Shown piece by piece: positions 47,574 to 54,489 of a stretch of DNA of 64,000 nt. The stretch covers positions 1,798,001 to 1,862,000 of the forward strand of contig NZ_CP032683.1 in NCBI RefSeq assembly GCF_001304615.2, written 5' to 3'. The stretch is from Methanosarcina flavescens. GTDB taxonomy: Archaea; Halobacteriota; Methanosarcinia; Methanosarcinales; Methanosarcinaceae. A model generated the notes under the pieces. The model did no database searches. It had not been told where the DNA came from and saw nothing but the letters and a program-made list of their open reading frames with translations. The first letter of the stretch is position 1. Every line of letters begins with the position of its first letter. A program made the translations under genes and the position numbers.

Positions 47574-49058
47574 ATGGGAAGCCGTTTTGCCACACAAGGT
47601 GCTGTAGATGTTGATATTCAGAAGGCGACCGGAGCTAAGGGAAAATTTCAGGAAGCAGTATCCGCGCAGAACCCTGAAAAAGAAAATCCATCAAGGGTAG
47701 TTATTATAGGAGGCGGAGCCTGCGGCATGGCAGTTGCCACCAAAATTCGAAGGCAGAGTGATTTTGAGATTACTGTACTTTCAAGAGATTCTCATACTGC
47801 TTATAGTCATTGTGGAATCCCTTTTGTTCTGGGCAGGGAAATTGAGAATTTTGAGAAGCTGATAGTAAAGCCCCTGGATTTCTTCCAGAAAAACAGAATA
47901 GACGTCAGGCTAAATGAGTGTGCAAGCTCAATAGACCTGGATTCAAAGATTGTTCGGACAGGGAAAGGAGTTTATCCTTTTGACAAACTTGTAATTGCTA
48001 CAGGCAGCCTGCCCTTTGTACCTCGAATAAGCAGCGCAAATATTCTCCCCTATGGAGTCTTTACCCTGAGAAGCCTCAAGGATGGTATACTTTTTGAAAG
48101 AGCCCTTGAAACTGCTAATAGAGTTTGTATAATAGGCGCAGGAACACTAGGAATAGAGTGTGCAGTCGCGCTTGCAAAAAGAGGAGTAAAACCTTTCCTC
48201 ATAAGCAGAAGCAAAAACTTGGTTTCCAAGCAGCTTGATCCTGATATCTCTGTAATTATACGGGAACATCTGGAGAATATTGGGATTGAGGTTATCACCG
48301 GAGCAACTGTGACTTTTCCTGAAAATTTCTGGAAAGAAAAAATCCTGTTCCTTGAGGATAGGAAGCTCCCTGCAGATCTTGTACTTTTTACAAGCGGAGT
48401 CAGGCCTGAGACATTCCTTGCCATGGATGCAGGAATAAAAATCGGAAAATCCGGAGGGATAATTGTAAATGAAATGCTCCAGGTTAAGGCGGGAAAAGAA
48501 TTTCTTCCCTATGTATATGCAGGTGGGGAGTGTGTAGAAGTAACAGACCTTATAACAGGAGAAGCCAGGTTAAGTCAATTGGGTACAACAGCCCGCCATA
48601 TGGCCGACATAATCGCCAACAATATCACAGGAAAACGTGCCGTTCTCGGGCCGCTTGCCGACCCTTGGGTAGCCGTGGCAGGAGATTTGCAATTTGGTGG
48701 AGTTGGTATCACTTCAAAAGAAGCCGAAAGCCATGGAATAAAGGTAGTCACAGGATTTTCCCGAGGACGTACAAGAGCCTTCTATTACCCGGGCAGGAAA
48801 GATCTGTACATTAAACTCCTGTTCAAAGATGGGGTTCTGGTGGGTGCTCAGCTTGCAGGAGGAGAAGGGATAAAGGAAAGAATCGATGCACTTTCTCTTG
48901 CAATCAGAAAGAAAACAACGATAAGAGACCTCCTTGACCTGGAAACATGCTACGCACCGCCGTTATCTATGCTTGTAGATCCTCTCAAACCGGCTGTGAA
49001 AGCTGCAATCCGAAATATAAAGGAAGAAGAAAAAAAGAAAAAGATGGCAGCAGGATAA
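47574..49058 (+). CDS. CoA-disulfide reductase / NADH oxidase-like flavoprotein
   Basis: The 494-residue protein has an FAD site (VVIIGGGACGMAVATKIRR), the single redox cysteine of this family in AYSHCGIPFVLG, the NAD motif CIIGAGTLGIECAVAL and a second FAD contact YVYAGGECVEV. The C-terminal dimer domain contains FSRGRTRAFYYPG. Relatives reduce CoA disulfide, polysulfide or oxygen; in a methanogen a role in thiol or oxygen defence is likely but not shown. About 40 residues precede the FAD motif, more than usual. The gene is 37 bases from rtcA on the same strand. Confidence 0.9.
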   Translation: MGSRFATQGAVDVDIQKATGAKGKFQEAVSAQNPEKENPSRVVIIGGGACGMAVATKIRRQSDFEITVLSRDSHTAYSHCGIPFVLGREIENFEKLIVKPLDFFQKNRIDVRLNECASSIDLDSKIVRTGKGVYPFDKLVIATGSLPFVPRISSANILPYGVFTLRSLKDGILFERALETANRVCIIGAGTLGIECAVALAKRGVKPFLISRSKNLVSKQLDPDISVIIREHLENIGIEVITGATVTFPENFWKEKILFLEDRKLPADLVLFTSGVRPETFLAMDAGIKIGKSGGIIVNEMLQVKAGKEFLPYVYAGGECVEVTDLITGEARLSQLGTTARHMADIIANNITGKRAVLGPLADPWVAVAGDLQFGGVGITSKEAESHGIKVVTGFSRGRTRAFYYPGRKDLYIKLLFKDGVLVGAQLAGGEGIKERIDALSLAIRKKTTIRDLLDLETCYAPPLSMLVDPLKPAVKAAIRNIKEEEKKKKMAAG

Positions 49059-50201: not shown

Positions 50202-50825
50202 TCAATCTTCAATGATAAAAAGATATTCAGGGGGTATCTTTTCCGTAAGTACGATGTCGTCAGTTGCAAGTTTGAGAGAGATCCCGTCTTCCTGGGCTTT
50301 AAATGCATCTATTTGAAGGATGATAGGGTTTTCAGTATGAATAAGGGCTACTTCTAATGCCTTCTCATATGAGGTGCTGAGGTGGACGTATCTCTGTTTT
50401 ACCGGAAAAATCCCGTTCTCAAGCAGAACATCGACTTCCTCAGGGCTTGCCCCATAATACAGGTATGGATAATCGCTTTCCTTATAGTCCAGGTCAATAT
50501 TGACAGAATGCCCATAGCGTGCCCTGATTTTGGAATTACGAATTTCATACCGTCCTTTTTCATCGGATTCTACAAGGGCATAAAGGTATTCCTTTTTCAT
50601 CCAGTTGTACCGTTTTTTCATAACATCATAGAAAGCATTGAGATTAACCCAGCCGAACATGTCCATTTCAACCCCTGCAGACGCTGGGAAATGCCGGAGA
50701 GTGCCTGATACAAACCTGCCAAGCTTTTCTTCCTTGCTGTCGTCCAGCAGGTATCTGCCAGGGCGTTTACACTGCAGACAGCTGCCTCCTCTAAAATAGC
50801 CGTGCTCAGTGCATTTCCTAATCAT
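50202..50825 (-). CDS. kptA: RNA 2'-phosphotransferase (Tpt1/KptA)
   Basis: The 207-residue enzyme removes an internal or terminal 2'-phosphate from RNA and transfers it to NAD. A short Cys-containing N-terminus (CTEHGYFRGGSCLQCKRPG) may bind zinc. The core shows LRHFPASAGVEMDMFGWVN, the catalytic IRARYGHSVNID, LYYGASPE and YVHLSTSYEKALEVA. The start ATG at 50825 fits the family. Confidence 0.95.
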   Translation of the reverse strand: MIRKCTEHGYFRGGSCLQCKRPGRYLLDDSKEEKLGRFVSGTLRHFPASAGVEMDMFGWVNLNAFYDVMKKRYNWMKKEYLYALVESDEKGRYEIRNSKIRARYGHSVNIDLDYKESDYPYLYYGASPEEVDVLLENGIFPVKQRYVHLSTSYEKALEVALIHTENPIILQIDAFKAQEDGISLKLATDDIVLTEKIPPEYLFIIED

Positions 50826-50917: not shown

Positions 50918-52003
50918 TCAACCATTCTCGGTGTTAAAATTGTCTCCAAATATTTTGTAGAATAAGAGACCTGAAATAGCCAGAAAGGCAGCTCCTAATG
51001 CTGTTTCCCTAAAACCGAAAAGCTGGGAAGAAACTCCCCCTAGGAGAGCGCCTGCAACTCCTGCAGCGCCAATCATTGAGTTGATAAGACCCGCTACTGT
51101 TGCTTTATCTGGATTCAGTTCGACAACTTGGCGGGTGGAGCCCACATACAAAAAAGACCAGGCACAGGCAACGAGAAACATACTGGGTATAATATAAAGA
51201 TAAAATGGAGCTAGTGCATAACTCACAAAGCCAATAGCTGAAATAAGGTATCCTGCATAGATCAGTTTCCTGTTTTCAAAGGAATCCAGCCTGCACATAA
51301 TTAAAAACTGGATTGCGGGGTTAATAGCGTAGATAAATCCTATCCAGAAAGCACTTGCTCCTAGCTGCTTAAGATACAGAGGATAAAATGCCCAGACTCC
51401 CAGGGCTCCGGTATGGCGGAGGAAAAGAGGAAAATAGATTCCTGAATTCTTCAACAGAGTATTCAAAGAAAAGTATGAAACGCCAAGCCTGGGTTTTAGA
51501 ACGCTTTTCAATTTTAAGGCCTTTAAAAAACATAATAGGTAAAAAGTGGCAGAAAGCAAGAAGAGTATGTTCATTTTTTTTCCTATAAGACCTGCTAACA
51601 GGAAGCCAGCCAGCCATCCCAGAGAACCTAGGGAAATAAATCTTCCCAGGCTCTTTTTCTGGTAGTACACATACATAATCAATGCTCCAGGGCAAATTCC
51701 TACGGTGAAACCTGTAAAAGCTCTTGAAAGCATTAGAGAACCCGGATCATTGGCAAAAATCTGAAGGAAAAAAGCTACAGATGAAAATCCAAGACCTCCA
51801 AGGAGAATTGTGCGTAAATTATGAAAGTCTCCAAGCCGGCCGAAGATAAAGGAGGAAAGCAAGATCGCAGCTGAGTAAATACTCACTATGAGACCTACCT
51901 AAAAATAAGAAGCTCCAAAGGATGTTGCAAATACAGGAATGAAGAATAAAGAAAGCACATTTGCTGTATTCGAGAGGAACTGGATCTTATTTACCTGTAT
52001 CAA
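50918..52003 (-). CDS. MFS transporter interrupted in frame by one UAG codon
   Basis: From 51898 to 50918 the sequence reads VGLIVSIYSAAILLSSFIFGRLGD and on through the remaining helices of a major facilitator, with no further defect. Directly upstream, in the same frame, NKIQFLSNTANVLSLFF and IPVFATSFGASYF encode the first MFS helix. Only a TAG at 51899-51901 separates the two. In relatives this site is usually within xxFQVGLI, so TAG may stand for CAG (Gln). In Methanosarcina UAG can be decoded as pyrrolysine, so this may be one 361-codon gene or a nonsense mutant. The start (TTG at 52003 taken here) is uncertain. The transported substrate is unknown. Confidence 0.75.
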
Positions 52004-52245: not shown

Positions 52246-52325
52246 TTGGATTCAAACATAGTGTAAAGCCTTTATCCAAAAGCCTTTGGATTCAAACATA
52301 GTGTAAAGCCTTTATCCAAAAGCCT
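52246..52325. repeat. 40-bp direct repeat, two copies
   Basis: The units at 52246-52285 and 52286-52325 are identical or nearly so; each contains TTGGATTCAAACATAGTG and AAAGCCTTTATCCAAAAGCC. CTTTTGGATAAAGGCTTT-type complementarity within the unit gives a weak hairpin. The rest of 52326-52604 is AT-rich with no gene. Confidence 0.85.
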
Positions 52326-52604
52326 TATAGGGGCAAAACCTTCTAAATTGCCTGCGAGTGGTTACTGCAACCAGGACAAAAAAACATAAAATATAACTTA
52401 GACAATAGGAATTAAAACATAAGATTTAGCAGATTAAATTTAGTAGATTAAAGTTTAAAGCAGTGAAAACACAAGATAAAAAGAATAAAGAGAACTCTAC
52501 AAATATCTGGCTACAACCTTTGTCTGGCTATAACCTTTCTTGTAGTAGATTCATTAAAAGATATAAATTTTGAGATACGTTACTTTGAAATCTTGTCTGA
52601 AATA

Positions 52605-52783
52605 TGTCTGAATATCTGGAACATGTCTGAATATCTGGAACATGTCTGAATATCTGGAACATGTCTGAATATCTGGAACATGTCTGAATATCTGGAACAT
52701 GTCTGAATATCTGGAACATGTCTGAATATCTGGAACATGTCTGAATATCTGGAACATGTCTGAATATCTGGAACATGTCTGGA
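52605..52783. repeat. 19-bp tandem array, nine copies plus a partial
   Basis: TGTCTGAATATCTGGAACA repeats exactly with period 19 from 52605 (starts at 52624, 52643 and so on to 52757), ending in a partial unit at 52776. There are no spacers, so it is not CRISPR. It lies 250-430 bases upstream of rpa. Because 19 is not a multiple of three, all three frames stay open on the minus strand, which explains the repetitive reading frames there. Confidence 0.95.
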
Positions 52784-53034: not shown

Positions 53035-54489
53035 ATGACAGATATTGAATCGATATATAAAAAGCTCAGCCATGTCATCAGTAAAGAAGATTTTCTGCAG
53101 CGTGTCCAGAAGAAGATGGAAAGCATGGGCGGGCTTTGTGATGAACCTATGGCTGCCATGCTGGTTGCCAATGAACTCGGATTTTCAGATGTAGGTCGGG
53201 ACAGTGTAAAGATTGAGGACATTAAAGCCGAGAACGGACCAGTTAACTTTATTGCAAGGGTATTATCGGTTTTTGATGCCAAGGAATTTACCCGGAATGA
53301 CGGGACGATAGGCAGGGTAGGAAATTTAATTGTCGGAGATGAGACCGGAAAAATAAAGGTTACTCTCTGGGACAATATGGCGGATCTCATTAAGGTTGGA
53401 AAAATCAAAACAGGGCAAACCCTCCAGATCAGCGGCTATGCAAAGCAGGGATACTCCGGAGTGGAAGTCAATGTAGGAAATAATGGAGTCATAACCGAAA
53501 GTGAAGAAGAAATCGATGTGGCTGCAAGCAGCCAGAAGATTAAGGATGTAAAGGATGGCATGGGAGACCTGAATTTGGTAGGTAAAGTTCTTGAAGTCTC
53601 AGAAATAAGGACTTTCCAGAGAAAAGACGGTAGCAGCGGAAAGGTTGGAAGCCTGCTCCTAGGGGATGCAACAGGCACAATCAGGGTGACATTATGGGAT
53701 GAGAAGACCGAGTTTCTGAACCAGATAGAATATGGAGATACTGTGGAACTTGTCAATGCTTATGCCCGGGAAAATGCATTTAGTCAGAAAGTTGAGCTGC
53801 AGGTAGGAAGCCGAAGTATAATCCGGAAAAGTGAGAAAAAAATCGAGTATGAGGAGAAATTTACCCCGATTGCGGATATCAGTGCCGATATGAACGATAT
53901 CAATGTTTCTGGGAGGGTACTGGACATTGGGGAAACTCGCACCTTTGAGAAAAAAGATGGGTCTACCGGAAGAGTTGGAAATCTCCTTCTTGGGGATTCC
54001 ACAGGCAAAATCAGGCTAACTCTCTGGAATGAAAAAACCGATTTTCTGGATGAGATTGATTTTGACGAGACAATAGAAGTACTCCATGCCTATTCTCGGG
54101 AAAATGCTTTCAACCAGCAGGTGGAGCTGAATCTGGGAAGCAGAGGGATAATCCAGAAAAGTGAGAAGGAAATTGAGTATAGAGAAAAGTTTACGGATAT
54201 CGCTGATATTGTCCCTGGGGAGAGTTACTCAGTCCAGGGGAAAGTTTACGAAATTGGAGAACTCCGGGAGTTTGAGAGGGAAGACGGAACCGAAAATGTG
54301 GTTGCAAATCTGCAACTTAAAGACGAAACCGGCAGCATAAGGTTAACTCTCTGGGGAGAGCAGGCATATGTTATCGAAGATCTTGATATTGATTCCGAGA
54401 TACAGGTTATTAACGCATATGCGAAATATGGCCTGAACGAGGAAATCGAGTTGAGTGTCGGGAACCGAAGCAGAGTGATTATACTTTGA
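53035..54489 (+). CDS. rpa: replication protein A, four OB folds
   Basis: The 484-residue single-stranded-DNA-binding protein has four tandem OB folds at about 65-160, 166-265, 278-380 and 388-484. Each shows a similar core, such as GRVGNLIVGDETGKIKVTLW in the first and GSLLLGDATGTIRVTLW in the second. There is no zinc finger. This fits the RPA1 type of Methanosarcina, which differs from the two smaller zinc-finger RPAs of the same organisms. AAAGGGA lies before the ATG at 53035. The second and third OB folds are especially alike, suggesting internal duplication. Confidence 0.96.
   Translation: MTDIESIYKKLSHVISKEDFLQRVQKKMESMGGLCDEPMAAMLVANELGFSDVGRDSVKIEDIKAENGPVNFIARVLSVFDAKEFTRNDGTIGRVGNLIVGDETGKIKVTLWDNMADLIKVGKIKTGQTLQISGYAKQGYSGVEVNVGNNGVITESEEEIDVAASSQKIKDVKDGMGDLNLVGKVLEVSEIRTFQRKDGSSGKVGSLLLGDATGTIRVTLWDEKTEFLNQIEYGDTVELVNAYARENAFSQKVELQVGSRSIIRKSEKKIEYEEKFTPIADISADMNDINVSGRVLDIGETRTFEKKDGSTGRVGNLLLGDSTGKIRLTLWNEKTDFLDEIDFDETIEVLHAYSRENAFNQQVELNLGSRGIIQKSEKEIEYREKFTDIADIVPGESYSVQGKVYEIGELREFEREDGTENVVANLQLKDETGSIRLTLWGEQAYVIEDLDIDSEIQVINAYAKYGLNEEIELSVGNRSRVIIL

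Follow-up and report, generated by a model that had tools for sequence, protein, structure and literature searches.

A private in-frame UAG codon, probably a young nonsense allele, in a transporter gene of Methanosarcina flavescens

When a single in-frame TAG interrupts an otherwise open gene in an archaeon equipped to make and use pyrrolysine (Pyl), is the codon a nonsense mutation, or does it specify an amino acid? This question is raised by a Major Facilitator Superfamily (MFS) transporter gene of Methanosarcina flavescens, located in a stretch of 64,000 nucleotides (the window; contig NZ_CP032683.1, positions 1,798,001 to 1,862,000). The answer proposed here, which we hold to be highly probable, is that the transporter is dispensable and that its gene is a very young nonsense allele, private to this genome, whose effect amber suppression partly masks; the case resembles that of Thg1 in Methanosarcina acetivorans. 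The elements concerned are the following:

50918..52003, minus strand: MFS transporter reading frame with one in-frame TAG, a TTG start and a TGA stop; its uninterrupted ortholog shows 93% amino acid identity.
51899..51901, minus strand: in-frame TAG at a codon that was originally GAG (Glu), where the second transmembrane helix starts, according to the codons of 24 homologues and 16 loci and to model helix 33-57.
52001..52003, minus strand: TTG, the most likely start codon, from a comparison of upstream sequences with those of orthologs.

The ancestral state of the amber codon was deduced from related sequences. The nearest relative (genome G016) has GAG at this position, with flanking bases (TATTTT and GTAGGT) identical to those of M. 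flavescens; a single G-to-T transversion, from Glu to amber, therefore took place after the split between the two. An alignment of orthologues at the site, proposed in a preliminary description of the window, showed 13 Gln, 9 Glu, one Asp and one Gly among 24 homologues of other genomes; of 16 loci of a second collection, some of which represent the same genomes, 15 have Glu and one has Asp. UAG was found in none of these 40 homologue sequences and, as far as they reach, the GAG-to-TAG change is private to this genome. The preliminary description had envisaged the amber mutation of a CAG codon, perhaps tolerated by read-through. The amber mutation stands, but CAG (Gln) as the ancestral codon is ruled out by GAG, the codon of G016 and of most members of the genus.

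As judged from its sequence, the frame is a real gene. It runs on the minus strand from TTG (52003-52001) to TGA (50920-50918), with the TAG at 51901-51899 (context ATSFGASYF-TAG-VGLIVSIYS) as its sole interruption. The continuity of the frame on both sides of the TAG, without any other defect, had already been remarked and is borne out by the intact ortholog of G016, which has no stop and is 93% identical over its full length. The read-through protein matches PF07690 (Pfam MFS_1) with an E-value of 9.5e-25 and 87.7 bits, the curated cut-off being 33.4. Its AlphaFold2 model, built with the homologues as alignment, displays an MFS fold (pLDDT 84.7, pTM 0.85), in which the TAG, at codon 35, lies in the second long transmembrane helix (33-57), two residues after its beginning, so that termination leaves the first transmembrane helix only. 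The solved folds nearest to the model are those of transporters such as NorA, SotB, VMAT2 and MdfA, at 14-18% identity. As for NorA (8ttf), SotB (6kkl) and MdfA (4zow), which have the MFS drug:proton antiporter fold, the TM-scores with the predicted transporter are 0.80-0.86, although with only 15-17% identity to these three proteins its substrate cannot be inferred. No further copy of the transporter was found in the genome, where the gene is single-copy.

The locus is anchored by two conserved neighbours placed by tblastn synteny, which we take to be the following genes:

50202..50825, minus strand: kptA-like RNA 2'-phosphotransferase gene.
53035..54489, plus strand: replication protein A-like (RPA) gene, on the other side.

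The MFS gene sits between the RPA-like gene and the kptA-rtcA pair, and the RPA–MFS–kptA–rtcA order is kept in the genus (tblastn). Its distribution was surveyed in 31 Methanosarcina species genomes, this one included. The gene is intact in seven other species, fragmentary in the incomplete assemblies G010 and G020, and broken in G025, G003 and G007, where the locus retains remnants damaged by frameshifts, deletions and stop codons, while 18 of the 31 genomes have no match. In G008, which has no MFS match, 788 bases separate the 5' ends of the two flanking genes, vs. 2210 bases here. On the basis of this distribution, the transporter gene has been lost repeatedly and appears dispensable in the genus. 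The broken copies of G025, G003 and G007 resemble the window copy in occupying the RPA-kptA locus and in including in-frame TAG codons, but they are disrupted by several stops as well as by frameshifts and deletions, whereas the window copy differs from an intact gene by one substitution only. The G025 remnant (L053:3704-4489) has, besides frameshifts, its own in-frame TAG at another position (YQK-TAG-SLGK, Gln in the orthologs), i.e. an independent amber.

Three other observations were made around the locus. Between the MFS gene and RPA, a tandem array of about 10 copies of a 19-base unit, TCTGGAACATGTCTGAATA, occupies positions 52596-52781, and array-like BLAST matches are also found in G016. 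The same interval also holds a 40-base sequence duplicated in perfect tandem (52246-52326). Concerning the flavoprotein oxidoreductase gene at 47574-49058, its synonymous divergence (dS) from G016 is 0.05, vs. 0.09-0.15 for its neighbours, with a ratio of non-synonymous to synonymous divergence (dN/dS) of 0.54; either recent inter-lineage recombination or local rate differences would account for the low dS.

Read-through of UAG, considered in the preliminary description, is plausible in view of the gene content of this genome, which encodes tRNA-Pyl (anticodon CUA), pylS, pylB, pylC and pylD. Its methylamine methyltransferase genes (mtmB and two mtbB) have one in-frame TAG apiece. In M. acetivorans, a UAG introduced in a reporter is read as Pyl at 20-30%, and the PYLIS element is reported to be non-essential (PMC2933860). 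A PYLIS-like fold was sought in the 103-base segment that begins with the TAG, which folds no better than shuffled sequences (z 0.49), and therefore no special read-through signal is apparent. Some leaky Pyl read-through of the MFS amber would thus be expected, although not at a level like that of the methyltransferases. A TnpA-like/TnpB-like pair, of IS200/IS605 type by appearance, was observed just upstream of tRNA-Pyl (L051:7779-9332).

Comparison with known Pyl genes places the case close to one of them. The tRNA-His guanylyltransferase (Thg1) of M. acetivorans contains a private UAG, which is read as Pyl and is unneeded for activity (PMC2933860). Both genes have a single private in-frame UAG, sense codons in the homologues and a full pyl set in the genome; the MFS case differs in that the transporter is dispensable. 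The Thg1 gene of M. flavescens itself has no in-frame stop within its matched part. Like the genes of MtmB, MtbB and MttB, the first two of which are represented in this genome by genes of such a structure, the MFS gene has a long frame interrupted by one in-frame UAG, but the methyltransferase UAG is catalytic and conserved across species and isozymes, whereas that of the transporter is private and located at a Glu/Gln site. The main text of the 2013 prediction survey (PMC3639795) mentions no transporter.

Amber-interrupted genes were also searched for across 480 kb sampled from the genome, by retaining every TAG with at least 25 open codons before it and at least 150 after it. Thirteen TAG codons have such flanks, twelve of which lie in antisense shadow frames or in noncoding DNA upstream of a gene, and only the MFS TAG is inside a gene, which sets it apart from a chance occurrence. 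Stop usage in the window, for open reading frames of at least 120 amino acids, amounts to 25 TAA, 15 TGA and 4 TAG, in line with the earlier remark that most genes there end in TAA or TGA. Moreover, pylB (L051:4224-5339, minus strand) terminates at a TAG, which makes UAG a true stop within the very operon making Pyl; such an end was already reported for pylB of M. mazei and M. acetivorans (PMC2933860). With no other amber-interrupted gene and a pylB stopping at TAG, a wide use of UAG as a sense codon was rejected for the 480 kb sample.

The start codon had been put forward as the main argument for decay, an argument that the orthologs do not sustain. Six intact orthologs of the genus (L003-L008) start at an ATG immediately preceded by a TTG (CTTGATG). 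The ancestral ATG (51998-52000) has become ATA both in this genome and in G016, and the TTG one codon upstream is in frame and open. Being common to the intact ortholog, the weak start is older than the amber; it was therefore rejected as proof of decay following the amber, and it does not tell the readings apart. It suggests a lower expression of the gene.

The favoured course of events would begin with the G-to-T transversion turning GAG into TAG, after the split from the nearest relative, in a compact gene for a 12-helix MFS protein. Most ribosomes would then stop after 34 residues, with only the first transmembrane helix made, so that the gene would be close to a null allele. A minority would probably insert Pyl and yield the full-length protein when Pyl is available, since tRNA-Pyl, PylS and the genes for Pyl biosynthesis are all present; we infer the amount of this read-through. 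The mutation would be tolerated because the transporter is dispensable in the genus; it is presumably neutral and would most likely mark an initial stage in the loss of the gene.

Several results weigh against this interpretation. The dN/dS of the MFS gene vs. G016 is 0.23, close to that of rtcA (0.23), RPA (0.18) and kptA (0.14), with no relaxed selection visible. Polarised by an outgroup, the missense/silent changes are 14/15 on this branch and 12/15 on the G016 branch (P 0.80), and no second lesion is present in the 358 codons of the frame. The clean frame and the selection counts fit a recent origin of the amber, but would also fit a gene in use through read-through. From the dN/dS and the branch counts it follows that purifying selection prevailed for most of the branch, the amber being recent or partly masked. 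An Arg-to-Cys change at column 244, where the other 24 sequences have Arg (22) or Gln (2), gives a weak hint of relaxed constraint.

The same data have to be set against the alternative that the transporter is functional and regularly made with Pyl, the Glu-to-Pyl replacement being neutral as in Thg1 and expression depending on amber suppression. The otherwise intact frame with a dN/dS like that of its neighbours, the full Pyl machinery and the Thg1 precedent, together with 20-30% suppression obtained without a special signal (PMC2933860), all speak for it. However, nearly all homologues have Glu, Gln or Asp at the site, where the bulky Pyl is not obviously harmless, the gene is dispensable and often lost, no PYLIS-like fold accompanies the codon and the weak start probably cuts the output further, so that we regard this alternative as unlikely. 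It is rather improbable that the cell produces a working transporter with Pyl in place of the conserved Glu/Gln, in an amount tied to the Pyl supply (methylamine growth). An adaptive Pyl, by which a Pyl-dependent function would have been gained or the transporter level would be set by the Pyl supply, has nothing in its favour except that the codon and the machinery exist. The restriction of UAG to one genome among all the sequences compared, the lack of a cis signal and the absence or breakage of the gene in most of the genus make it extremely improbable, and the Pyl-containing transporter considered in the preliminary description is not upheld, as an adapted site, on these same grounds. Finally, the TAG could reflect an error of sequencing or assembly, or a mutation that became fixed in a single strain in culture, as only one base separates the gene from an intact one and the comparison covered one genome of the species. 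A lone substitution is less likely than an indel to be an error, and the genome is a single contig with 99.99% estimated completeness, which leaves this explanation very improbable.

By itself, the gene is an ordinary dispensable transporter. If it were nevertheless a working Pyl transporter, it would be a newly evolved Pyl protein that is not a methyltransferase. The amber allele is young and natural, its host both terminates at UAG and reads it, and a close relative has an intact ortholog; the gene could thus be used to assess to what extent leaky Pyl insertion protects genes against nonsense mutations and delays their loss.
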